From positions 62,001-126,000 of the forward strand of contig NZ_JAHQZR010000004.1 of NCBI RefSeq assembly GCF_019049105.1: a stretch of 64,000 nt of DNA, given 5' to 3'. The notes below the pieces were generated by a model, which saw only the letters and a list, made by a program, of their open reading frames with translations, did not search any database and was not told the DNA's origin. The DNA comes from Leucobacter chinensis (GTDB lineage: Bacteria > Actinomycetota > Actinomycetes > Actinomycetales > Microbacteriaceae). How positions within the stretch are numbered: position 1 is the stretch's first letter; each line of letters opens with the position of its first letter. The translations under genes were made by a program, and so were the position numbers. This document shows, piece by piece, positions 5,736 through 29,363 of the stretch.

Positions 5736-5766
5736 TTGACATCGATCATACCCCCTGGGGTATAGT
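5736..5766 (+). promoter_or_regulatory. Promoter with 19-bp spacer holding a CsoR/CstR operator
   Basis: TTGACA (5736-5741) and TATAGT (5761-5766) form near-consensus -35 and -10 boxes reading toward the sulfur operon, with a long 19-base spacer. The spacer carries the pseudo-palindrome ATACCCCCTGGGGTAT (5748-5763), the G/C-tract form expected for CsoR/CstR operators. Confidence 0.75.
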
Positions 5767-16693: not shown

Positions 16694-17827
16694 TCACTGC
16701 CCCCGCAGCCCGCACACAACCGCATCGATGCACTCGGTGAGTCTCCGCACGTCATCGGGCTCGACCGAGACGTAGGTGGCAATGCGCAGCTGGTTCTGGC
16801 CGATGCCACTGTAAGCGTCAACATCAACGATGCCGTGCGCGCGAAGCTGACGCGAGAGCTCGTGTGCGCCGACGTTGCCCGCGAATTCAATGGTTGCGTT
16901 GACGGGCGAGCGGTGCGCGGGGTCGACCACGAAAGGCGTCGCGTAGTCGCTGCGCTCGGCCCAACGGTACAGCATCTCCGAGCTCTCGCGGGCGCGAGAC
17001 TCGGCCCAGGCGAGGCCGCCGCTCGCGATGATCCACTGGAGTTGTGTCTCGAGCAGGGCCAGGGTGACGAGCGACGGGGTGTTGACGGTTTGCTGCGATC
17101 TCGAGTTCGTGATCGCGAGATGCAGGTTGAGCGAGTCGGGAATGTGGCGGCCGCTTGCCGCGATGCGCTCGGCGCGCTCGATTGCCGCCGGTGAGAGCAG
17201 CGCGACCCAGAGGCCGCCGTCAGAGCCGAGGTTCTTTTGGGGCGCGAAGTAGTAGACGTCGGCGTTTGCCGCGTCGAAGGTGATGCCGCCCGCGGCGCTC
17301 GTCGCGTCGATGAGGGTGAGCGCCTCGCTCGCGGGAACGACGCGTTCGACGGGTGCGACGACGCCGGTCGAGGTGTCGTTGTGGGGCCACGCGTACACGT
17401 CGATTCCGGCCTCGGCGACGGGGGCGGCGAGAGTTCCGTGCGGCGCGCTTCGCACCGACGGGGTCTCGAGCCAGGGGGCACCCGCGGCACGCGCAAACTT
17501 CTTGCCGAAGGCGCCAAAGTTCAGGCACTGGGCGCGGTGTTCGATGAGGCTCGCTGCCGCAACGTCCCAGAACATGGCAGCGCCGCCGTTGCCCATGACC
17601 ACCTCGTAGCCGTCAGGGGCATCGAAGAGGTCGAGCAGTTGGCGCTGCACCGAGCCGACGAGCGCTTTGACGGGAGCCTGCCGGTGCGAGGTGCCGAGCA
17701 GGTCACGATAGGTCGTCGTGAGGCTCGTGAGCTGTTCGGGGCGAAGGCGCGACGGCCCGCTCCCAAACCTGCCGTCAGAGGGCAGCATCTCGGCGGCAAG
17801 GGTGACGATGGGGGTTGCGGTGTTCAC
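16694..17827 (-). CDS. serC: Phosphoserine aminotransferase, actinobacterial type
   Basis: A 377-residue class V PLP aminotransferase close to the mycobacterial SerC pattern: GRFGSGPSRLRPEQL near the start, LLGTSHRQAPVKALVG, the PLP-binding stretch ATSAAGGITFDAANADVYYF, and the Schiff-base Lys in APQKNLGSDGG. The reaction is 3-phosphohydroxypyruvate plus glutamate to phosphoserine, and SerC-type enzymes can also act in the DXP route to vitamin B6. The GTG start overlaps the pyridoxal kinase stop (GTGA), so it is the second gene of a kinase-serC operon with a shared operator. Confidence 0.92.
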   Translation of the reverse strand: MNTATPIVTLAAEMLPSDGRFGSGPSRLRPEQLTSLTTTYRDLLGTSHRQAPVKALVGSVQRQLLDLFDAPDGYEVVMGNGGAAMFWDVAAASLIEHRAQCLNFGAFGKKFARAAGAPWLETPSVRSAPHGTLAAPVAEAGIDVYAWPHNDTSTGVVAPVERVVPASEALTLIDATSAAGGITFDAANADVYYFAPQKNLGSDGGLWVALLSPAAIERAERIAASGRHIPDSLNLHLAITNSRSQQTVNTPSLVTLALLETQLQWIIASGGLAWAESRARESSEMLYRWAERSDYATPFVVDPAHRSPVNATIEFAGNVGAHELSRQLRAHGIVDVDAYSGIGQNQLRIATYVSVEPDDVRRLTECIDAVVCGLRGQ

Positions 17828-18729
17828 TGGGCGCTCCTCGCGAGTGACTGGGGTGATGCGGTGTGGTTGAGCTGGGTCAGGGTGGTGCGCACGCGTGCTC
17901 CGGCTGCCGAGACGGCGTCTTTGAGGCGTGCTCCGCCCAGCAGAGCCGCGTTGAGCTCGGCAGTAAACATGTCGCCGAGCCCTTTGGCCTCGGTAGGCAC
18001 CGCCGGGTGCCGGTGCACGTGCGTTTCGCGCTGCGTCACGAGCATCTCGGCGATGTGGGGCCTGCCGCGGTGGGATTCGCTCGTGACTCCGGTGACGATG
18101 ATCCACTCGGTATTGGGGGTCATGAGCGACCTCGCGGCGCGCTCGATCGCCGCGGTCGAGCTGAGCGCGTCGAGAGGCGTTTCGGTGAGCGTCGCGAGTT
18201 CGAAGAGGTTCGGGGTGAGACCCGTGGCGAGCGGCACGAGCTCGTCGCGCATGGGGCGGGTGACCGCGGGGTTCGTATAGAAGCCGAGTTCGACATCGCC
18301 GAGGGTGGGGTCGAGTACCAGGGGTACCGAGTGCGCAGCGCACCAGGAAGCGATGGGGGTGACCTGCTCGGGGGCGGCGAGATAGCCAGAGGTCACGAGC
18401 TGGAGGCCGCCGAGGGCGCCCGCCGCGTCGAGGTCGGTGAGCGCCTCGCTGAGGTACTCGGGCGGCACGTCGAGGTGGTGCGAGCGGGGGTAGTGCGGCA
18501 TGACGCTCAGCATGATCGTGGCGATGCCGATGGCCGCGATGTCGTGCTCGGCGTACACGCGTTCAGAACCATTGAGCCCGACCGAGCCGTACAGGAGCCG
18601 CGACCCGAAGCCGAGAATGCGGGGTCTGGGGGTGGCGAGCTCAAGGCGCGCGGCACCCGCCACCTCGCGGGCGATGCGGCCGACGGGTGCTTCTGAAGCA
18701 GGTGTGTCATTGCTGGTTCTTATTGACAT
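17824..18729 (-). CDS. Pyridoxal kinase (PdxK/PdxY type)
   Basis: A 301-residue ribokinase-fold kinase that phosphorylates pyridoxal. Motifs: RILGFGSRLLYGSVGLNGSE (substrate entry), LVLDPTLGD, GLTPNLFELATLT (family signature), ESHRGRPHIAEM, and the ATP/anion-hole GLGDMFTAELNAALL with the catalytic Asp. The kinase core begins near residue 37, so the N-terminus is ~35 residues longer than in E. coli PdxY. The ATG at 18729 is still favoured because a -10 box TAGCAT ends exactly 7 bases before it, the same layout as yggS, which implies a leaderless mRNA. Confidence 0.87.
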   Translation of the reverse strand: MSIRTSNDTPASEAPVGRIAREVAGAARLELATPRPRILGFGSRLLYGSVGLNGSERVYAEHDIAAIGIATIMLSVMPHYPRSHHLDVPPEYLSEALTDLDAAGALGGLQLVTSGYLAAPEQVTPIASWCAAHSVPLVLDPTLGDVELGFYTNPAVTRPMRDELVPLATGLTPNLFELATLTETPLDALSSTAAIERAARSLMTPNTEWIIVTGVTSESHRGRPHIAEMLVTQRETHVHRHPAVPTEAKGLGDMFTAELNAALLGGARLKDAVSAAGARVRTTLTQLNHTASPQSLARSAQ

Positions 18730-18742
18730 AGGTCAAATGCTA
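18723..18742 (-). promoter_or_regulatory. PLP-locus operator 1 over the pyridoxal kinase start codon
   Basis: TTGAC-ATAG-GTCAA (18723-18736) is an inverted repeat whose left arm contains the kinase start codon in complement (18727-18729). On the minus strand a -10 box TAGCAT (18742-18737) stands 7 bases before the ATG. The same 15 bases recur at 24843-24857. It also serves the divergent aminotransferase gene. Confidence 0.8.
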
Positions 18743-18798
18743 GCATGGTTGATGTTGGAACAGTTCGAGCGGCTCAACCGGGCCGAGAAGCGACAGAT

Positions 18799-19917
18799 AT
18801 GAACGAGCAATACGAGATGATTCCCTCGGCAAAGCCACTCATCGGGCACGAAGAACGAAGCGCGGTTGATCGGGTGCTCGCCTCGGGCGGCCTGGCCCAG
18901 GGCCCAGAGGTCGCCGCGTTCGAAGCGGAGTTTTCGCGGCAACTCGTGGGCGGCAGGCCCACCGTCGCCGTGAACTCAGGCACGAGCGGGCAGCACCTCG
19001 GTTTGCTCGCGAGCGGGGTCGGGCCGGGCGACGAGATCATCGTGCCCTCGTTTACCTTCGCCGCGGTCGCGAACTCGGTCGTGCTCGCGGGGGCAACCCC
19101 GGTGTTCGTCGATATCGAGCCGCGCTACTTCACGCTAAACCCTGCCAAGGTGGCTCAGGCAGTGACCGAGCGTACGAAGGGCATCATGCCCGTGCACCTC
19201 TACGGGCATCCCTTCAAGGCCGACGCTATGCTCTCTGTTGCCAAAGAATACGAGCTCACGGTGTACGAAGACGCGGCCCAGGCGCACGGCGCGACGTGGC
19301 AGGGTGAACCCGTCGGCACCTTCGGTGAGTTCGCGATGTTTAGCCTGTACCCGACGAAAAACATGACCGCGATCGAGGGCGGCATGGTGGCCTGCCGCAC
19401 CGAAGCGATCGCGCGGGGCGTGAGGCTCCTGCGCAACCAGGGCATGGAGACGCAGTATGCGAACGAGATCGTTGGCTTCAACGCCCGCATGAGCGACGTG
19501 CACGCTGCGGTCGGTCGGGTGCAGCTCGGCAGGCTTGAAGCGTGGACTGAGACGAGGCAGCGCAACGCCGCGTTCTACGAGCGTGAGCTTGGCTCGCTCG
19601 CGGGCCTTCGCACCCCGCAGACCTCGCCGCTTGCGACCCACGTGTACCACCAGTACACCGTGCGGGTTGATGGGGCCGAGCGCGACCGCATTCGCGAGGC
19701 GCTTCGTGAGGAGTGGGGCATCATGACCGGGGTGTATTACCCGACGCCGTGCCACCGGCTGCCCTCGCTCACCCGCTATGCCGAGGGGGTTCACCTGCCC
19801 GAGACCGATCTCGCGGCGGTCGAGGTGATGTCGCTGCCCGTGCACCCGTCGCTCAGCGAGGCCGATCTTGAGCGCATCGTGCGCGGGGTGACGAGCGTTG
19901 TGGGAGCGGGTGCGTGA
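18799..19917 (+). CDS. DegT/DnrJ/EryC1-family PLP aminotransferase
   Basis: A 372-residue fold-type I enzyme of the sugar-aminotransferase family. Key blocks: AVNSGTSGQHLGLLASGVG (cofactor phosphate), PSFTFAAVANSVVLAGATPVFVD, YEDAAQAHGA with Asp158, and the Schiff-base Lys187 in SLYPTKNMTAIEGG. Later blocks GFNARMSDVHAAVGRVQL and YHQYTVRV are also standard. Members aminate keto-sugars of nucleotide sugars or antibiotics, yet no sugar genes are near. Instead the gene leads an operon with MoxR and VWA genes, opposite pyridoxal kinase. Its substrate is unknown. Confidence 0.88.
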   Translation: MNEQYEMIPSAKPLIGHEERSAVDRVLASGGLAQGPEVAAFEAEFSRQLVGGRPTVAVNSGTSGQHLGLLASGVGPGDEIIVPSFTFAAVANSVVLAGATPVFVDIEPRYFTLNPAKVAQAVTERTKGIMPVHLYGHPFKADAMLSVAKEYELTVYEDAAQAHGATWQGEPVGTFGEFAMFSLYPTKNMTAIEGGMVACRTEAIARGVRLLRNQGMETQYANEIVGFNARMSDVHAAVGRVQLGRLEAWTETRQRNAAFYERELGSLAGLRTPQTSPLATHVYHQYTVRVDGAERDRIREALREEWGIMTGVYYPTPCHRLPSLTRYAEGVHLPETDLAAVEVMSLPVHPSLSEADLERIVRGVTSVVGAGA

Positions 19918-21380
19918 TGAGTGATACGGGAGGGCTCGGGTTGCTTGAGCACCCTGCGACTCGGGCGGCAGAGGGCGTGGCGAGGGCCGAGGCCGTTCGT
20001 CGTGAGCTGCGGCACGCACGCCGTGCGCTCGCGGCCGACCTGGCATGTGGCGGTGAGCCCGTGGGTCATGCGAGGCTCGCGGCCGAGAGCGTGAGCCGGC
20101 TCGAACGGGAGCTCGACGCGTTGCTCGCCGACCCCGAGGTTCTGGAAGGCGCGTGCCGGGCACTCGACGAGCGGGCGGCGGTGCTTCGCGTCGCGATCAC
20201 CGCGCACCGCTTTGAGGCCGAGGCGCGGAGGCGCTGGGAAGAAGGCGACGAGCTCATCGCCCACGCGGCTGCCACGGGGCGAAGGCTCACCGACGACGAG
20301 CGCCGTTTTCTTGAGGTCACACCAGAGCGCGCCGAGACCGCTCTCGAGCGTGCCCTGCCAGAGGCGGCCTCGGCCACCCTCGTGACCGGAGCTGCCGAGG
20401 CACTCGCCGCCATGCGGGTGCGCGAAACCCGTGCGCAACTTCAGGAGGGGCTCTGGGTCTCGCCGCAAATGCGGGGGGTCATTCGCGCCGCGCTCCCGGC
20501 GCTCGCCGCGGGCGCACCGCTGCTGCTCATCGGCGAGACGGGTGGGGCCAAGACGGCGCTTGCCGAGCACCTCGCCGCCAGGGTGGCGCCCGAGGCCGAG
20601 TTCGTTTCGGGCTACGGCGACATTACTTCGGCGCAGCTCGTCGGAACCCACGAGCTGCGGGCCGAGGGCGGGGCCACCGTGACGGCGTTTGAGCCAGGGC
20701 CGCTGTTGCGGGCGATGACCGAGGGCAAGCCGCTCATTCTCGACGAGGTGAACGCGATGCCTCCCGAGTTCTTGAAGCGGCTCAACCGCATCTTGCAGCT
20801 GCGCCCCGGCGCCAGGTTCGCGGTGCAAGAGCAGGCCGGGCTCACCGTCACGATCGCCCGAGGCTTCTCGATCATCGCGACGGCAAACGAGCACGCGCCC
20901 GGCAGGTATCGCGGTATCGAGCCGTTGAGCGCCGAGCTGAGTAACCGCTTCGGCGCCAACGTGCACCGGGTGCACTATCCCGATGAGCACGTCGCATACG
21001 ACGATTACCCGCACGAGAACATGCTGCTTGCCGCGGCCTCGCTCGCCGACGAGAGCGGAGAGCTGCCGGGAACGATCACGCTCGCCGACCTCGAGCCCGT
21101 GGCCCGGGCGGCCTTTGTGAGCCAGCAGGTGTTCTCAGGTAACTACGGCGAGGGCTTTCGCGGCTTCGTGACGAGCGATCGCGAGTACGATCGCGAGCCG
21201 GGCCTCATCGAGACGGTGATCGCACCGCGCACCCTGGCGGCGATACTCGAACAGGTCGCCCTCACGGCGACCACGCGGTCACTGCACGAGGCCCTTGCGC
21301 GCTTTCTTGACGGGGTCATGAACGCCCACGACCGGAGGGTGCTCGCGCTCATCTTCGAGGGCCAGGGCATCGCGTTATGA
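19917..21380 (+). CDS. MoxR/CobS-type AAA+ ATPase
   Basis: A 487-residue AAA+ protein. The first ~170 residues are charged, Ala/Arg/Glu-rich and probably coiled-coil, an unusual extension. The ATPase core follows: Walker A GETGGAKTALAEH at residue 206, Walker B PLILDEVNAMPPEF at ~272, and a sensor 1 region FSIIATANEHAPGRYRGIE. The start at the ATG gives a one-base overlap with the aminotransferase stop; an in-frame GTG one codon earlier is possible. MoxR ATPases work with VWA partners to remodel or insert cofactors into client proteins, and the VWA gene follows with an ATGA overlap. Confidence 0.88.
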   Translation: MSDTGGLGLLEHPATRAAEGVARAEAVRRELRHARRALAADLACGGEPVGHARLAAESVSRLERELDALLADPEVLEGACRALDERAAVLRVAITAHRFEAEARRRWEEGDELIAHAAATGRRLTDDERRFLEVTPERAETALERALPEAASATLVTGAAEALAAMRVRETRAQLQEGLWVSPQMRGVIRAALPALAAGAPLLLIGETGGAKTALAEHLAARVAPEAEFVSGYGDITSAQLVGTHELRAEGGATVTAFEPGPLLRAMTEGKPLILDEVNAMPPEFLKRLNRILQLRPGARFAVQEQAGLTVTIARGFSIIATANEHAPGRYRGIEPLSAELSNRFGANVHRVHYPDEHVAYDDYPHENMLLAAASLADESGELPGTITLADLEPVARAAFVSQQVFSGNYGEGFRGFVTSDREYDREPGLIETVIAPRTLAAILEQVALTATTRSLHEALARFLDGVMNAHDRRVLALIFEGQGIAL

Positions 21381-23305
21381 CGGGCGCCGGCGACGATCGC
21401 CTTGCCGAGCAGCTGACGAGCCTCGGTCGGCTGCTCGGCATCACGGTGGTCGTCACCGATGAGAGCGAGTGGATCATTGCCCCCGAAAGCGTGCGCGTAG
21501 GCCTCGGCTTTTATCGCGACCGGGGCATCGCTGAGGGCGACGTCATGGCTCTTGCCCTGCGCGACTTCTGGGTCGGTGTTCGCCTGCCGCTCCTTGAACC
21601 GGGCCGCGCCTACCGGCGTGAGGCGATCGAGGCCGCGCAGCCCGAGCTCGCGCCGCTGCTCGCCACGGCCGATCGGCTCGATGCGATGGCGGCGATCGAG
21701 GTGGCGCTGCCCGGCATCGCAAGCGACCTGCGGCAAGCGACCGCGCGCAGCATTGCCGACGACGTGAGCGAGCTCTCCCTCGAGGCTCAGTGGCTCGCGG
21801 CGGTCACGAGGAGTTTTTCGGGCGCAGCCCTGCCCGTTGTCGCGCCGCAGGTTCGTCGCCAGCTCGGCGGTTTTGCGATGCTGCTCGAGCGTGCGGCGCA
21901 CTGTGGGCCGCTGCATGACGCCTGCAACGCGCTCGCCTTTCGTGAGGCAAGCGCGCCTACGGGGGTCGACCGCCTTGACCGGGTGCTCGCGCTCATCGCG
22001 CCGCCCTATCTCGAGCTGCTTCGCGGTGCGGGGCAGGGGCTTGCGACCCCGGGGGCGTCGCTGCACGCAAGGCCTGCCGATGGCGACGATGAGGGGCTCG
22101 GGGGCGACGAGGGGCGCGGCCCTCGAAGCGGCGAGAGCGACGATGGCACTGACGCCGAGGCGCAGGGCAGCGGTGCCTCGCAGGTGCAGGCGCTCGATAC
22201 AGCGGCGCCTCAAGATGCCGAGGGCGGTGACGAGCCGAGTGTCGACGAGCGGCTGCTCGTCGAGTCGCAGTCGGCGGTTGCCCCTACGGCGTTTCTTGAG
22301 ACCCCACTCTCGGCGACTCGTGCGAGTCTCGCACCGCTCGACGTGCCAGGAGACGAGTCGAGGCCGCTCAGCGAAGCAGATCACGAGCGCGTGGCACGTG
22401 ACGACCCGCGGGGCCCCCGGCTGGCACCAGCGCCGCACCCGGGGGTGCAGCGCGCGGCGGTTGCCGAGTATCGTGCCCGCCTCGAGCGCTACCGCCGAGA
22501 GGTCACAGCCACGCGCGAGGTGTGGCGCCTCGCGGTGAGTGAGCAGCTGCGGCTGCGGCAGATCGGGCTGCAGCGCGGGGCGGTCGAGGGAGCAGAGCTG
22601 TTTCGTGAGCGACTCGCTGCAACCGTCACCGAGGTCGCCGCTGGAGTTCCCAGGCCCGCCGCGTATCAGCAGTATGAGCGCCGGCCTCGCCACGGTGACG
22701 GGCTGCGCAGCACCGACTACGTGCTGCTGCTCGACCGCTCTGGCTCGATGCAGGGTGCCGCGGCCGAGCTCTGCGCCGACGCGGCGATGGTCATGGTTGA
22801 GTCGCTCGCGGCCGTGTCCCGCGATCTGCAAGGCCGTGACGAACGGGCCGCGCGGGCGCTCGACGTGCGATTGCGCGCGGGTATCATCGCGTTCGGTGAC
22901 GAACCCGTCGTCGTGAAGGGGCTGGACACCCCGGTCGATGACGAGGTACGGGCCTCGCTGCACGCTGCGGTGCGCGGCGCGCGAGGGTCGACGAGGGGTG
23001 CCGCCGCGCTCGACGCAGCGGCCGCGCTCTTCGGGCCCGAGGCGCAGGGCGAACGGCCCCGCCGCGTCGTGCTCTGCGTGACCGATGGTGACCTTGACGA
23101 CGTGGCCTCGCTCAAGGGGGCGATCGCGGGCCTCGACGCGCTCGGCGCCGAGGTGCACGCGATTGGGGTGGGGCGCTCACCCGGCATCGAGGTGTTTGCC
23201 CCGGCCTTCGAACGCATCGACACCCTGCGTGAGCTGCCAGGGCTGCTCGCCCGGGTCGTCGCCGCCGACGCTCAGGCGACGCTCGCGGGCCGAATGCCCA
23301 CGTGA
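21377..23305 (+). CDS. VWA-domain (CobT-like) partner of the MoxR ATPase
   Basis: A 642-residue protein with an N-terminal helical half, an acidic low-complexity middle (~235-290, Asp/Glu/Gly-rich), and a C-terminal von Willebrand A domain. The MIDAS motif DRSGSMQ begins at Asp453, with later metal-site elements RGSTRGAAAL and VVLCVTDGDLDD. This helical/acidic/VWA order is the CobT-type layout found with MoxR or CobS ATPases. It overlaps the ATPase gene by ATGA, so the two are co-translated. The client could be the adjacent PLP enzyme, which is inference. Confidence 0.88.
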   Translation: MTGAGDDRLAEQLTSLGRLLGITVVVTDESEWIIAPESVRVGLGFYRDRGIAEGDVMALALRDFWVGVRLPLLEPGRAYRREAIEAAQPELAPLLATADRLDAMAAIEVALPGIASDLRQATARSIADDVSELSLEAQWLAAVTRSFSGAALPVVAPQVRRQLGGFAMLLERAAHCGPLHDACNALAFREASAPTGVDRLDRVLALIAPPYLELLRGAGQGLATPGASLHARPADGDDEGLGGDEGRGPRSGESDDGTDAEAQGSGASQVQALDTAAPQDAEGGDEPSVDERLLVESQSAVAPTAFLETPLSATRASLAPLDVPGDESRPLSEADHERVARDDPRGPRLAPAPHPGVQRAAVAEYRARLERYRREVTATREVWRLAVSEQLRLRQIGLQRGAVEGAELFRERLAATVTEVAAGVPRPAAYQQYERRPRHGDGLRSTDYVLLLDRSGSMQGAAAELCADAAMVMVESLAAVSRDLQGRDERAARALDVRLRAGIIAFGDEPVVVKGLDTPVDDEVRASLHAAVRGARGSTRGAAALDAAAALFGPEAQGERPRRVVLCVTDGDLDDVASLKGAIAGLDALGAEVHAIGVGRSPGIEVFAPAFERIDTLRELPGLLARVVAADAQATLAGRMPT

Positions 23306-24054
23306 CGGCCGCGATCGGCCCGAACACGGGTGCCCACCCGAATGGTGTTGCAGGGGGCGTCAAAGGTGTAGCGGGCGGCGAGGGCCGGGCCGGGCAGGGT
23401 GCCCGCGATCCACGTGAAATGGTGTTGGTCGAGCTGCGGCGCGCCAGTAGCCGCGGCCCTCACGGCGAGCGTCAGCAGCTCTGCGATGCTCGGGTGGCTC
23501 GTCGCGGCAGAATGCTCGACGTCGACGAGCGGGGGAGCGGCCGCCGCGGGCAACCAGCGCAGGCTCCAGTCGACACGGCCGTGGCGCTCGCGCACCGTGA
23601 CGGTCTCGCCAGGCCTGCCGGGCGCCACATCGAGCGCCGCGAACCAGCGCTCGGCCTCGGTCGAGCACTCGAGCGCGAGTGGGGCCTCGGCGCTGCTCGC
23701 CGCGAGCACGCGCCGCCACCTCGCGAGGCCGAGGCCGTGCGGGGCGAGCACGGGAACGAGCGGGCCCATGTCGCCGTCATTGGGGGCGGCAGGGCTGAGC
23801 CCCGCGGCAAAGAAGCGCTCTGGCTCTGGCACGCCGATGCCCAGCACGCGCGCGATCGTCTCGGCCCCGGCGAGCGAGACGTTCAGCCGCGCGCCAGGGT
23901 CTTCGGCGAAGCGGGCGAAGGCCGACGAGTAGTGGCCGTCACGCATCAAGAGCACGCGGTCGGCGAGCGGATCGCGTTTCGCGGCCTCGCTCGACGCCCG
24001 CGCGTGACGCACCTGCCTCGCAAGGTCAGGAAAGAGCGTCTCGTGGCCGCGCAC
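23272..24054 (-). CDS. Protein of unknown function coupled to yggS
   Basis: A 260-residue protein I do not recognise. The GTG start lies three bases after the yggS stop, so it is probably translated by coupling. It overlaps the end of the convergent VWA gene by 34 bases. It is soluble, with no signal or membrane helix. Notable runs are RVLLMRDGHYSSAFARFAED, GETVTVRERHGRVDWSLRWL and a His-rich patch (QLDQHHFTWIAG). No nucleotide-binding or catalytic motif was seen. Its place inside the PLP locus suggests a related function. Confidence 0.65.
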   Translation of the reverse strand: MRGHETLFPDLARQVRHARASSEAAKRDPLADRVLLMRDGHYSSAFARFAEDPGARLNVSLAGAETIARVLGIGVPEPERFFAAGLSPAAPNDGDMGPLVPVLAPHGLGLARWRRVLAASSAEAPLALECSTEAERWFAALDVAPGRPGETVTVRERHGRVDWSLRWLPAAAAPPLVDVEHSAATSHPSIAELLTLAVRAAATGAPQLDQHHFTWIAGTLPGPALAARYTFDAPCNTIRVGTRVRADRGRHVGIRPASVA

Positions 24055-24057
24055 GGG

Positions 24058-24849
24058 TCACGCCTCAGGAAACGCCGAGGGCCAGTAGTGGCTGTCGGGC
24101 ACCTGCCGTGCCCCGAAGATGGCCTGACCCACGCGCACGCAGGTGGCTCCCTCTTCGATCGCGACCTCGTAGTCGCCAGACATGCCCATCGAGAGCCCGC
24201 CGTCGCCCACGAGTTCGGGGTCGGTGTCGCGCAGCTGATCGCGCAGGGTGCGCAGCAGGGTGAAGCAGGTGCGCACGCGGGGAATATCGCTGCTGAAAAT
24301 GGCGAGCGTCATGAGCCCACGCACCTGCAGCGACTGGAAGTTTGGCATTTCGCGCAAGAAGGCCTCGAGCTCTTCGGGCGGCAGGCCGTACTTTTGCGGC
24401 TCAGCCGAGGTGTTGACCTGCACGTACACGTCGAGCGATCGGCCCGCGGCCTGCAGCCTGCGGTCGAGCGCGGCGGCCGCACGAAGGTTGTCGAGCGCCT
24501 GAAACTCGCTCGCGAAGGCGGCGACGTCGCGCGCCTTGTTCGTTTGCAGGTGGCCGATGACCGACCACTCGACGCCGAGGTCGGCGAGGTTTTCAGATTT
24601 GCGCTTGGCCTCTTGCACCTTGTTCTCGCCGAGCTGGTGGCAGCCCGCGGCGACGGCGAGGCGCACGCGATCTTCGGGCACCGTCTTGCTCACGGGCAAG
24701 AGCCGCACGTCGGCGGGGTCTCGGTCGACGCTTCTCGCGGCCGCGTCGATCTTCGCGCGCACGTCGTGAATATTGCGCTCAAACTCGGCGACAGAGGTCG
24801 CGGTGGGGAAGTCGTGGATGGGGAGTTCGGGTTCGACTTGATTTGACAT
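24058..24849 (-). CDS. yggS: YggS/PROSC-family PLP homeostasis protein
   Basis: A 263-residue fold-type III TIM-barrel protein. PLP-binding Lys lies in LLPVSKTVPEDR. Later family blocks are LGENKVQEAKRK, WSVIGHLQTNKAR, VQVNTSAEPQKYGL and GLSMGMSGDYEVAIEEG with VRVGQAIFG. These proteins carry no known catalysis and buffer or deliver PLP. The usual actinobacterial copy sits near ftsZ, so this one may be a paralogue dedicated to the locus. The ATG lies within the second operator, 7 bases after a -10 box TACACT, so the mRNA is probably leaderless. Confidence 0.9.
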   Translation of the reverse strand: MSNQVEPELPIHDFPTATSVAEFERNIHDVRAKIDAAARSVDRDPADVRLLPVSKTVPEDRVRLAVAAGCHQLGENKVQEAKRKSENLADLGVEWSVIGHLQTNKARDVAAFASEFQALDNLRAAAALDRRLQAAGRSLDVYVQVNTSAEPQKYGLPPEELEAFLREMPNFQSLQVRGLMTLAIFSSDIPRVRTCFTLLRTLRDQLRDTDPELVGDGGLSMGMSGDYEVAIEEGATCVRVGQAIFGARQVPDSHYWPSAFPEA

Positions 24850-24862
24850 AGGTCAAAGTGTA
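24843..24862 (-). promoter_or_regulatory. PLP-locus operator 2 over the yggS start codon
   Basis: TTGAC-ATAG-GTCAA (24843-24856) repeats operator 1 base for base and again contains the complement of a start codon (24847-24849). A minus-strand -10 box TACACT (24862-24857) is 7 bases before the yggS ATG. The next bases, CATG with TGATG and GG, are also conserved between the copies. Confidence 0.8.
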
Positions 24863-24927
24863 CCATGAATGATGTCGGCCCCAACAGGCCAGATACACTC
24901 AGTGAGAAACCAGAAAGGAGACACGGT

Positions 24928-26298
24928 ATGACTGACCAAAACCAAGGCATGAATGTCAGCGATCGCATCTCTGGAAGTACCGCTGAAGAGATCGTGGGCA
25001 GCATTCGCGCCCTCATTCACGACGGGTCGCTGAAGGCCGGCGATACGCTGCCGCCATACCGCGCGCTTGCCGAGCGGCTCGGGGTCAACCGCAACACCGC
25101 GATGACGGCCTACCGCCTGCTCGTGCAGGTGAACATCGCCGAGAGCCGCGGCCGGGCTGGCACCGTGATCGCCGACCCGTACCATGAGTTTGCCGAAGAG
25201 GGCTTCGCGAGAGACAGCGTGCTGCTCGACGTCGGCGACGGCAACCCCGCGCCAGAGCTTTTGCCCGACCCGAGCGAGGTAACGCTCGGCCGAGTCACCC
25301 CGACGCTGTACGGCGAGCCCACGATTGACCCTGATCTTGCCCAGTGGGCAACGAGGTGGATCGAAGAGCACCAAGACCGCCCCTTCAGGCTCACGGTTAC
25401 CGCGGGTGCGGTCGACGCGATCGAGCGGCTGCTCTCGCAGGCGCTCACGCGTGGCGATCAGGTCGCGCTCGAAGATCCCTGCTTCTTGACGAGCATCAGC
25501 ACGATGCACCAGAACGGTTTTCAGCCGGTTCCGGTCGCGATGGACTCAGAGGGCATGGTGCCCGAGAGCCTGCGTGAAGCACTCGAGGCGGGTGTGCGTG
25601 CCGTCGTGTGTACGCCCCGCGCCCACAACCCGACCGGCGTGAGCCTCACGCCCGAGCGCGCCGCACAGTTGCGCGGGGTGCTCGCCGACTACCCGCAGGT
25701 CATGGTCATCGAAGACGACCACTTCGCCCTGCTCGCAACGAACGAGTACTCGACCATCATTAGCCCCGAGCGTGAACGCTGGGCGCTCGTTCGCTCGATG
25801 TCGAAGGCCCTCGGCCCCGACATGCGCATCGCCTTCGTGGCGAGTGACGCGACGACGGCCGAGCGGCTCGCGGCCCGCATCAGCGGCGGTATCACCTGGG
25901 TGAGCCACCTCTTGCAGCGCATCACGCACGCGATGCTCTCGTCGAGCGACGCGATGCAGCAGATTCACGAGGCGAGCGCCCACTACGCGGCGCGCAACGC
26001 CGCCTTCGTCGCCGAGCTGCGCGATGCCGGGTTCGCCTCGCCGAGCCACGACGGCCTGAACATCTGGGTCGACACCGGCGCGAGTGCGAAGGCCGTGCTC
26101 GCAGCCCTCATGACGAGGGGGTGGATCGCGCGCGACGGCGCGGCCTTCGCCCTCGCCGGCGACCACGAACACTGCCTGCGCTTCACCGTTCACGAGCTGA
26201 GCGACAGCGAGATGCGCCGGCTCGTGGGTGACCTTGCCGAGTCCAGCCAGGAGGCTGCCCTCGCGGCAGCGAAGCCCGGCAGTCTGAGCCGCAGGTAG
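24928..26298 (+). CDS. MocR-family regulator (GntR helix plus aminotransferase domain)
   Basis: A 456-residue MocR protein. Residues ~10-80 are the GntR winged helix (LPPYRALAERLGVNRNTAMT). Residues ~110-440 are a fold-type I aminotransferase domain (LTVTAGAVDAIERLLSQAL, CTPRAHNPTGVSLTPERA, VIEDDHFALLA) with the PLP Lys in SMSKALGPDMRIAF. The ATG follows an AGAAAGGAG site; an earlier ATG lies in the operator. GabR and PdxR are the known relatives, sensing GABA plus PLP or PLP alone. Placement between yggS and gabT makes it the probable regulator of the whole locus. Confidence 0.9.
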   Translation: MTDQNQGMNVSDRISGSTAEEIVGSIRALIHDGSLKAGDTLPPYRALAERLGVNRNTAMTAYRLLVQVNIAESRGRAGTVIADPYHEFAEEGFARDSVLLDVGDGNPAPELLPDPSEVTLGRVTPTLYGEPTIDPDLAQWATRWIEEHQDRPFRLTVTAGAVDAIERLLSQALTRGDQVALEDPCFLTSISTMHQNGFQPVPVAMDSEGMVPESLREALEAGVRAVVCTPRAHNPTGVSLTPERAAQLRGVLADYPQVMVIEDDHFALLATNEYSTIISPERERWALVRSMSKALGPDMRIAFVASDATTAERLAARISGGITWVSHLLQRITHAMLSSSDAMQQIHEASAHYAARNAAFVAELRDAGFASPSHDGLNIWVDTGASAKAVLAALMTRGWIARDGAAFALAGDHEHCLRFTVHELSDSEMRRLVGDLAESSQEAALAAAKPGSLSRR

Positions 26299-26358
26299 AG
26301 CACCCGCTGTCAGGCCCCATAGCTCCCACCACCTGAATATCCATCGAAGGGAATGAAC

Positions 26359-27711
26359 ATGTCGATCACCGCACCAACCGCCGCCCCCGCGACGCTGCAG
26401 CGACCAGAGCTGCGCACCGCGATTCCCGGCCCCGCGAGCCTCGCGATCCAGGCGCGCCGAGAGCAGGTCATTCCCCGAGGGGTGGGCTGTGCCCTGCCGA
26501 TCTACGTCGATCACGCCGACGGCGCGTGGATCACCGACGTCGACGGCAACCGCCTACTCGACCTGGGCTCGGGCATCGGGGTCACGACCCTCGGCCACAC
26601 GCAGCCAGCCGTGGTGCAGGCCGCGAAAGACCAGCTCGACAAACTGAGCCACACGCTCTTCACGGTGACGCCCTACGAGAACTACGTGCGCCTCGCCGAG
26701 CGGCTCGCCGAGCACACGCCGGGCAACCACCAGAAGAAGACCTTCTTCGTGAACTCTGGCGCTGAGGCCGTTGAGAACGCCGTGAAGATTGCGAGGGCCT
26801 ACACCGGCCGCCGCGTCGTCGCAGCCCTCGATCACGCCTTCCACGGCCGCACGAGCCTCACGATGGCGATGAACCACCGGGTCGCGCCCTACGGCACGAA
26901 CTTCGGCCCCTTCGCGCCCGATGTGCAGCGCGTGCCCAACTCGTACCCGCTGCGCGACGGCTTGACCGGTGCGCAGGCCGCAGCCCGCACGATCGAGTAC
27001 CTTGAGCAGCGCATCGGCGCGAGCGACCTGGCCGCGATCATCGCCGAGCCGATTCAGGGTGAGGGCGGCTTCGTCGTGCCGGCCGAGGGTTACCTCCCGG
27101 CGCTCCAGGAGTGGGCGACCGCCAACGGCGTCGTCTTCATCGCCGACGAGATCCAGTCGGGCCTCGGCCGCACCGGTACCTGGTTCGCGAGCGAGATCTT
27201 CGGCCTCGTGCCCGACCTCGTGCTCACCGCGAAGGGCATCGCCGACGGCCTGCCGCTCGCTGGCGTCACGGGCCGCGCCGAGATCATGGACGGTGCTCAC
27301 CCCGGCGGCCTCGGCGGCACCTTCGGCGGCAACCCCGTCTCGATCGCGGCGGCGCACGCCGTGTTCGACCTGCTCGAGACCGGCCAGCCCTTCGCCGAGG
27401 CGGCACGCATCGAAGCCGCCCTCAAGCGTGGCCTCGAAGAACTCGCCAACGATCAGGCCGTCATCGGCGACATTCGCGGGCACGGAGCGATGGTGGCCTT
27501 TGAGCTGCTCGACCCGGCTACCGGCGATCCGCTGAATGGCCTCGCGAGCGAGATCGCGGCCAAGGCTGCCGAGAGCGGCGTGCTGCTGCTCACCGCGGGC
27601 AGCTACGGAAACGTCATTCGATTCCTGCCGTCACTCACGGTCACGAATGAACAGCTTGAATTTGCCCTCGGGGTGATTCGAGAGGCGCTCGCTTCGCGCG
27701 ACGCCAACTAG
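26359..27711 (+). CDS. gabT: 4-aminobutyrate aminotransferase (class III)
   Basis: A 450-residue class III PLP aminotransferase. Motifs: FFVNSGAEAVENAVKIAR, AFHGRTSLTMAMN, AEPIQGEGGFVVPA, FIADEIQSGLGRTG with the cofactor Asp, and Lys in VLTAKGIADGLPLAGV, then GGTFGGNPVSIAAA. The reaction is GABA plus 2-oxoglutarate to succinate semialdehyde and glutamate, though related omega-amino acids are possible. The start at the second ATG has better spacing from GAAGGGA. It follows the MocR gene by 60 bases, as in GabR-gabT systems. No succinate-semialdehyde dehydrogenase is adjacent. Confidence 0.88.
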   Translation: MSITAPTAAPATLQRPELRTAIPGPASLAIQARREQVIPRGVGCALPIYVDHADGAWITDVDGNRLLDLGSGIGVTTLGHTQPAVVQAAKDQLDKLSHTLFTVTPYENYVRLAERLAEHTPGNHQKKTFFVNSGAEAVENAVKIARAYTGRRVVAALDHAFHGRTSLTMAMNHRVAPYGTNFGPFAPDVQRVPNSYPLRDGLTGAQAAARTIEYLEQRIGASDLAAIIAEPIQGEGGFVVPAEGYLPALQEWATANGVVFIADEIQSGLGRTGTWFASEIFGLVPDLVLTAKGIADGLPLAGVTGRAEIMDGAHPGGLGGTFGGNPVSIAAAHAVFDLLETGQPFAEAARIEAALKRGLEELANDQAVIGDIRGHGAMVAFELLDPATGDPLNGLASEIAAKAAESGVLLLTAGSYGNVIRFLPSLTVTNEQLEFALGVIREALASRDAN

Positions 27712-27845: not shown

Positions 27846-29363
27846 ATGAGTGCGATGCTCGCGGCGCTGCCGCTCGTCGCGGTCGTCGCGGGCCTTGTGC
27901 TCGGCCGTTCGAGCCGCACCGCAGCCCTCATCGGCATCGGCGTTGCCGTCGCCCTCATACTCACGCGCTTCGCGACCCCCGCGAGCGAGCTCGGCGCCTC
28001 GGCCATCGAGTGGGCGCCCGTGATGCTGAACGTCATGCTCATTCTCGCCGGCGGCATCGCCTTCGCCGAGGCGGGCAGGCTCACCGGCAACCAAGACACG
28101 ATCGCGACGTGGATCACCCGCTCGCTCGGCCAGGGCATCGTCCCGGTGCTCGCTATCGTGCACGGCTTCACCCCACTCACCGAGTCACTCACGGGCTACG
28201 GCATCGGTGCCGCCCTCGCGATCCCGCTCCTGCTCGGCCTCGGGCTGCCGGGCCGCAAGGCCGCCGCCCTCGGGCTGCTCGGCCTGTGCGCCGTGCCCTG
28301 GGGGTCAATGGGCCCCGGAACCCTCATCGCCTCACACCTCACCGGCGTCGGCTTCGACGAACTCGGCGTCGCGACGGCCCTCTTCAACGGCGTCGTGGTC
28401 GCAGGCGTTGGCGTTGCCGCCGCCCTCATCGCCTCGCCCCCTGGCCGCCGCCTCCGCGCGGTCGCCGCTGGCCTCGCCTCGGCCCTCGTGCTCTTTGCCG
28501 GCGTGCTCGGTACGAACCTGCTCATCGGAACCGCCCCCGCCGGAGCCATGGGCGGCGCCCTCGTGCTCATCGTTCACCTCGCCGCCCGCCGCCTGCGCGG
28601 CCACCCCCTCACCTTCCCGGCTCCCGTCGCCCGCGCCCTGCTGCCCTACGCCTTCGTGCTCGCGGGCATGCTCGCCGCGACGCTGCTCGTGGCGCCGCTG
28701 GCGGCTGGCCCGGCGGCGGCTGACCCGGCGGCGGCTGGCACGGCGGCGGCTGGCCCGGTCGCCTCGGCTGATACGGCTGGCGGTGCCTCGGCTGCCGCGG
28801 CGGATCCCGGCCCCGCGATCCGCACCCTTGTCGCCTGCCTCACCTCGCCGGCCTTCTGGCTCTTCGCCGCGACCATCGTGCTGCTCGTCGTACACCGTGG
28901 CCATGCCCGCACAGTCACCGCGCGCGCCCTCGAAACGTGGCTACAGACCGCTCCCTCGACGGCACTCTTCATCGCGCTCGGTGCGCTCATGGGCGTCAGC
29001 GGAATGTCCCAGGAAGTCGCTCAGCAGCTCGCCCACCTCGGCTCGGGCTACTTCTTCGCGCTGCCCGTCTTCTCGACCCTCATCGGCTTCATCACCGGCT
29101 CAAACTCGGGCGCCAACGCCCTCGCCGCCGGGGCCCAGGCCGATGTCGCCAGGCTGCTCGGAGCCGACGTGACGCTCGCGGTCGGCGTGCATAACGCCGC
29201 AAGCGCCGCCGCCATGATGTCGGCCCCCGCTCGCGTCGAGCTCGCCGCGCGCCTCGCGCTCGTGCCCGGCGAGGCGCGCGCGCTGCAGGGCACGATGCTC
29301 GTCATCGTCGGCGCGGTGAGCCTGGTGCTCGGCGCGGTGAGCTGCTGCGTGCTGCTCGGGTGA
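27846..29363 (+). CDS. LctP-type lactate permease family transporter
   Basis: A 505-residue permease with about 13 hydrophobic helices. It resembles the L-lactate permease (LctP/LldP) family: GFTPLTESLTGYGIGAALAI, CAVPWGSMGPGTLIASHL, and the C-terminal FITGSNSGANALAAGAQADV and GVHNAASAAAMMSAPARVE. The substrate is probably a short carboxylate taken up with protons. The ATG follows GAAGGAG, 22 bases after the tRNA; an earlier in-frame start would run through the tRNA. A loop after helix 9 carries an Ala/Gly/Pro repeat encoded by tandem DNA repeats. Confidence 0.82.
   Translation: MSAMLAALPLVAVVAGLVLGRSSRTAALIGIGVAVALILTRFATPASELGASAIEWAPVMLNVMLILAGGIAFAEAGRLTGNQDTIATWITRSLGQGIVPVLAIVHGFTPLTESLTGYGIGAALAIPLLLGLGLPGRKAAALGLLGLCAVPWGSMGPGTLIASHLTGVGFDELGVATALFNGVVVAGVGVAAALIASPPGRRLRAVAAGLASALVLFAGVLGTNLLIGTAPAGAMGGALVLIVHLAARRLRGHPLTFPAPVARALLPYAFVLAGMLAATLLVAPLAAGPAAADPAAAGTAAAGPVASADTAGGASAAAADPGPAIRTLVACLTSPAFWLFAATIVLLVVHRGHARTVTARALETWLQTAPSTALFIALGALMGVSGMSQEVAQQLAHLGSGYFFALPVFSTLIGFITGSNSGANALAAGAQADVARLLGADVTLAVGVHNAASAAAMMSAPARVELAARLALVPGEARALQGTMLVIVGAVSLVLGAVSCCVLLG
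28701..28760 (+). repeat. Four tandem 15-base repeats within the LctP-type gene
   Basis: Four consecutive units of the form GCGGCTGGCCCGGCG, with one or two changes each, encode AAGPA, AADPA, AAGTA and AAGPV. They lie in a hydrophilic loop, keep frame, and could vary in copy number between strains. Confidence 0.85.

Follow-up and report, generated by a model that had tools for sequence, protein, structure and literature searches.

We report two identical palindromic sites in a vitamin B6 locus of Leucobacter chinensis that we take, with a probability of nearly 80%, to be operators of a PtsJ-like repressor of the MocR subfamily encoded at 24928-26298, which would shut transcription in both directions at each site and whose action would be strengthened by PLP. 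The sites lie 6.1 kb apart in a stretch of 64,000 nucleotides, the whole of the DNA that was analysed, referred to below as the window and used for all positions.

Two identical sites at divergent junctions

A search of the window located the 15-mer TTGACATAGGTCAAA exactly at 18723-18737 and 24843-24857, the copies being 6120 bases apart, in agreement with the original prediction that identical 15-mers stand at both divergent junctions. Allowing up to three mismatches to TTGACATAGGTCAAA, the window contains six matches against 0.29 expected, a number reached by none of 100 shuffles; four of the six are the two sites read in either direction, and the other two are a weak unrelated pair at 5736 and 46250. 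Across the whole 2.94 Mb genome, searched with up to two mismatches, the matches were the two sites and the reverse reading of site 2, with none besides. The pattern written backwards, used as a genome-wide control with the same tolerance, gave no forward and two inexact reverse matches, so that lone inexact matches mean little and it is the exact pair that counts. A genome search for the 14-base inverted repeat had been proposed with the original prediction, and it returned only two places for the palindrome TTGACNTANGTCAA, both at B6 genes. In the congener, the sole other genome found for the genus, the palindrome likewise occurs at two places, both sites being conserved there, and the control pattern was found in neither genome.

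The predicted operator 1 is the palindrome TTGAC-ATAG-GTCAA at 18723..18736, whose centre is the start of pdxK, and the predicted operator 2 is the palindrome at 24843..24856, between yggS and mocR; neither is assigned to a strand. A weight matrix trained without either Leucobacter genome gave 32.2 bits for operator 1 (over 18722-18748) and 28.5 bits for operator 2 (over 24842-24868), and in the rest of the window it gave 15.0 bits for the reverse reading of site 1 and 6.1 bits for the next best position.

Two genes on the minus strand have their start codons at these sites. The first, pdxK (17824..18729), encodes a PRK08176-like pyridoxal/pyridoxine kinase that scores above the cut-off of PF08543 and, with 183.6 bits, under the cut-off of 342 of NCBIfam NF006034; the second, yggS (24058..24849), encodes the PLP homeostasis protein (TIGR00044, 173.5 bits, cut-off 106.25). 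On the plus strand, the first gene to the right of operator 1 encodes a DegT-family PLP-dependent aminotransferase (18799..19917; PF01041), while mocR (24928..26298) is followed by a gabT-like gene for a class III aminotransferase (26353..27711; TIGR00700, 522.9 bits, cut-off 506.65). The true start of mocR is probably 24928, with AAAGGAG ahead of that codon. After gabT comes a gene for an LctP-family permease (27849-29363, plus strand), and a similar permease of this family, with 30% identity, comes after pdxK in a relative, G308 (L082); the permease is a candidate B6 vitamer transporter.

Promoter elements and start codons

At each site the operator spans the complement of an ATG on the minus strand (CAT at 18727-18729 for pdxK and at 24847-24849 for yggS), and the hexamers TAGCAT (18737..18742) and TACACT (24857..24862), predicted -10 boxes of leaderless pdxK and yggS, end exactly 7 bases ahead of these codons on the same strand, just as originally described. 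Absent from that description were plus-strand -10-like hexamers at both sites, namely TAGCAT at 18741..18746, directed towards the degT operon and fitting the mocR promoter consensus TAGCATGG, and TACCAT at 24861..24866, in the mocR promoter. The plus -10 box shares its TA with the minus -10 box at each of the two sites, and from the position of the plus-strand promoter the degT gene is predicted to be co-regulated.

The pdxK and yggS ATGs each stand directly after TGA-CCT in frame, so that neither frame is able to start further upstream, and no Shine-Dalgarno site is visible by eye ahead of either. This arrangement, a -10 box about 7 nt before the start without a Shine-Dalgarno site, as taken to mark leaderless genes, was found likewise for both genes in the congener and for yggS in G308. 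The earlier suggestion that the two genes are apparently leaderless is supported by the -10 spacing and, for yggS, also by G308, in which the gene has a start at this very position and the protein alignment begins at residue 1; G308 yggS has further in-frame starts, one of them upstream. Between the two Leucobacter genomes, codons 2-25 of yggS differ by three synonymous and no non-synonymous changes, and codons 2-22 of pdxK by one synonymous and six non-synonymous changes, so that no coding constraint is seen in the latter. Alternative starts for pdxK amount to none within 45 codons in the congener and to a single GTG, at codon 23, in L. chinensis. Evidence for the predicted start codon is weaker in pdxK than in yggS.

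Short frames were also observed on the plus strand, with ATGs at 18752 and 24872 (also 24869) located 5 nt past the plus -10 boxes, close to where plus-strand transcription is predicted to begin (near 18752 and 24872); the frames, 18752-18802 and 24869-24931, overlap the starts of degT and mocR by a final ATGA. In the congener GTG is the first codon of frame 1, in which LEQFERL-RAEKRQI is conserved apart from one replaced residue, with four changes that are synonymous, and frame 2 is identical in the two genomes and therefore uninformative. It is possible that these frames encode leaderless leader peptides; by eye, no consistent plus-strand frame for a shared leader peptide was seen in the loci of the relatives inspected.

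Identity of the regulator

The protein encoded by mocR has the architecture of the MocR subfamily, with a GntR winged helix-turn-helix domain (PF00392, residues 18-81) and an aminotransferase domain (PF00155, residues 127-434), each above cut-off. In this subfamily the PLP lysine sits in an SxSK-type motif, and the corresponding SMSKALGP of the present protein aligns to SFSKTLGP of MppQ (8tn2). Its best NCBIfam model is PtsJ (NF012025), with 512 bits; because this is below the curated cut-off of 573, we call the regulator no more than PtsJ-like. Against the PdxR equivalog NF052282 it scores 153.5 bits, the cut-off being 320. In the window genome this mocR is not divergent from pdxS, which lies on a separate contig facing a different MocR gene (L083:3731-4870). 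The latter encodes a PdxR-like protein of 379 aa, shorter than the model, with 316.8 bits against the PdxR cut-off of 320, and no copy of the present operator was found at that pdxS locus. The second gene facing pdxS suggests separate regulators for synthesis and salvage.

The operator in relatives

A protein search at E 1e-70 found the mocR gene in 41 of 398 genomes of the family. Thirty loci from this search, together with one from Microbacterium fluvii, formed a set of 31 mocR loci, and a palindrome with a -10 box was present upstream of mocR in all 31 by a pattern written after inspection of the sequences. In relatives the element reads TTTGRCCTAGGYCAAA, with some positions variable, followed by two or three bases and then TAnCAT or TAnCAC, the consensus form of the extended element being TTTGRCCTAGGYCAAA-N3-TAGCAT. 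As the search expression had been chosen post hoc, the association was put to a test by means of a weight matrix and a covariance model of sequence only, both built from 27 sites, leaving out the two Leucobacter genomes and two loci with shifted spacing.

Run on the 398 family genomes with stricter filters, which lose weak matches, the covariance model returned 45 matches at E values of 0.1 or less, spread over 41 genomes. In 35 of the 41 mocR genomes, among them all 26 that had supplied training sites and 9 of the other 15, a match was located 8-72 nt ahead of the start of mocR as aligned; of the 357 genomes without this mocR, 6 had any match at all. The ten matches elsewhere are site 1 of L. 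chinensis, site 1 of its congener, one extra in G106 and seven more, which fall in six genomes that are small and lack this mocR; the match in one of these genomes, G016, has no -10 box behind it, and by eye the nearest open frames do not resemble B6 genes. The six mocR genomes missed by the model all keep a palindrome upstream, with spacing or arms altered, as judged by eye. The operator was found at none of seven other pdxK-like loci (L075-L081, G308 included), nor at L082 and L084.

The association extends to other families of the order. Among 386 genomes searched order-wide, 51 carry mocR, and 25 of these 51 belong to three other families. Twenty-three of these 25 loci were examined (G742 and G635 were left out), and 20 reached at least 20 bits, the remaining three matching 11 of 12 palindrome bases; one locus, L143, passes the matrix (23.0 bits), and its palindrome is weak, at 8 of 12 bases. 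Ten loci from the family itself were scored alongside, nine of them new: nine gave at least 32.6 bits, and L156 (G650) gave 1.9 bits yet matches 11 of 12 palindrome bases. Letter-shuffled fragments reached 20 bits in 0 of 3600 cases and 11 of 12 palindrome bases in 1 of 3600. The same palindrome and -10 box thus stand upstream of relatives of mocR in four families, which supports the proposal that the MocR protein beside site 2 is the candidate binder; on these sequence grounds the neighbouring PtsJ-like MocR is very probably the binder of both sites.

Dyads of the form TTGAC-N4-GTCAA look like those of other families, and the palindromes might belong to another transcription factor, for instance a CRP/FNR-like protein or another GntR regulator, that controls B6 genes. 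The exact palindrome TTGACNTANGTCAA is held by 28 of the 398 family genomes, and in 26 of these it is not beside homologues of the window's ten proteins, pdxS being outside those ten; only the loci of the two Leucobacter genomes match any of them. The core palindrome alone was for this reason dropped as a diagnostic. We nevertheless consider control by another factor very improbable, as the extended element tracks this mocR in four families and is rare in genomes of the window's own family that lack it. The similarity between the two junctions also continues through the plus -10 box, as in a mere shared or copied promoter segment with no dedicated regulator, but the dyad is kept in G017, G118 and G172 although the standard -10 spacing is not, and L131 and L133 each have two dyads in tandem; we find such an origin hardly credible. 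The two last-named loci, from another family, carry their tandem pair of operator palindromes before mocR.

Architecture of the divergent promoters

Among 46 loci, the gene facing mocR is pdxS in 43 and yggS in three, those of L. chinensis, its congener and G308; at the sensitivity used, pdxK was located on the mocR strand, downstream of mocR, in 35. A Pfam search found no pdxS in G308. In all 31 loci of the set described above, the base 7 nt past the minus -10 position is an A at the dyad centre, where it begins AGG in 22, AAG in three, AGA in two and ATG in four. The ATG at the dyad centre starts yggS in L. chinensis, its congener and G308, so that in these three genomes the predicted first transcribed base appears to have become the A of ATG. 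Where the stretches inspected extend as far as pdxS, they show, as judged by eye, a leader that contains a Shine-Dalgarno-like site. At L059 (G194), around 1417-1443, an ATG in frame with pdxS lies at the predicted pdxS transcription start, with the gene's own Shine-Dalgarno site still there, and this locus is a plausible intermediate between the leadered and the leaderless state.

The minus -10 box conforms to TAnnnT in 29 of 31 mocR loci and the plus -10 box in 24 of 31, the other seven being TAnCAC (five) or shifted by one base (two), and the two boxes have TA in common across the loci. Position A16 is kept in 27 of 27 sites and its mirror T1 in 17 of 27, an asymmetry expected if A16 is at the same time the base that completes the minus -10 box. 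We regard the plus-strand promoters as part of the design.

Relation to known systems

In Salmonella, PtsJ is reported to repress both pdxK and its own gene, an effect that PLP enhances (PMC6071262; PMC13353753; citing Tramonti 2017), and loss of PtsJ raises pdxK about 80-fold (PMC13353753). The present system resembles that pair in having a MocR protein linked to pdxK and PtsJ as its best matching model, the Salmonella protein being autoregulated (PMC6071262, PMC13353753). It differs in that the regulator is actinobacterial and below the equivalog cut-off, the sites are found also at yggS and, in relatives, at pdxS, and the operator lies on predicted leaderless starts.

PdxR regulons with pdxST, pdxK and COG325 (YggS), and with divergons, are already in print, and two inverted repeats are given for 20% of MocR regulons (PMC5320631); our loci share this content and the divergons, and the regulon type is therefore not new. 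A difference is that pdxS of the window genome faces a PdxR-like gene of its own. Another is that characterised PdxR proteins activate pdxST and repress themselves, with PLP acting as an anti-activator (PMC5320631). This activity of PdxR in other bacteria keeps alive a reading in which MocR binds the sites as a switch of that type, the apo-protein repressing mocR and activating the divergent gene and PLP abolishing activation; that relatives of this mocR mostly face pdxS, as counted above, speaks in the same direction. The palindrome, however, lies over the predicted +1 of the divergent gene, just behind its -10 box, where a bound protein should block RNA polymerase, and the regulator scores far higher with the PtsJ than with the PdxR model, both below cut-off. 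We judge activation of this kind unlikely.

Operators at leaderless promoters have precedents: for AcuR of Rhodobacter, a TetR-family repressor, the description is of a palindrome that overlaps a leaderless promoter, not of an ATG-centred one (PMC3017554), and NreA of Mesorhizobium, from the CsoR/RcnR family, has a compact operator within the promoter of a leaderless operon, in the -35/-10 spacer (PMC12724321). Leaderless transcripts are frequent among actinobacteria, at 33% in C. glutamicum (PMC5401885) and almost a quarter in mycobacteria, for which an ATG or GTG at the 5' end is enough (PMC4633059). No description of the present motif was found in the literature searched, which did not extend to the supplements of PMC5320631, and a text search of papers for the literal 14-mer TTGGCCTAGGCCAA gave 0 matches. 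The kind of regulon and the type of regulator are thus known, and what appears as an unusual variant is that site, transcription start and start codon coincide.

Proposed mechanism and significance

In the repressor model that we favour, a MocR dimer would bind the palindrome TTGACNTANGTCAA. On the minus strand it would cover -7 to +7 of the predicted pdxK and yggS mRNA starts, the A of AUG of these leaderless mRNAs being +1 at the dyad centre, and on the plus strand it would occupy the -35/spacer region of the mocR and degT promoters, so that repression is predicted both ways at both junctions. Repression is plausible from the position of the sites and from the precedent of Salmonella PtsJ, by analogy with which PLP would strengthen MocR binding. 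The PLP-loaded regulator would repress pdxK, yggS, itself and probably degT; with plentiful PLP, salvage (pdxK), PLP buffering (yggS) and the regulator would all fall.

More tentatively, and at somewhat less than even odds, the arrangement may be a conserved bidirectional switch, in which a B6-sensing repressor sits on one +1 and on the other -35 region and in which operator, transcription start and first codon have become inseparable in evolution. The -10 boxes, overlapping by TA, would then admit only one polymerase at a time, and the +1 base in the middle of the dyad would, in two genera, have turned into the A of the start codon.

Through the analysis a group of B6-linked MocR proteins, found in four actinobacterial families examined, gains a very probable operator and a predicted regulon. 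The loci suggest a stepwise route from a leadered divergent promoter to a leaderless one whose operator lies over the start codon, and the salvage kinase would be joined with YggS, the PLP homeostasis protein, in a single circuit that presumably senses PLP.
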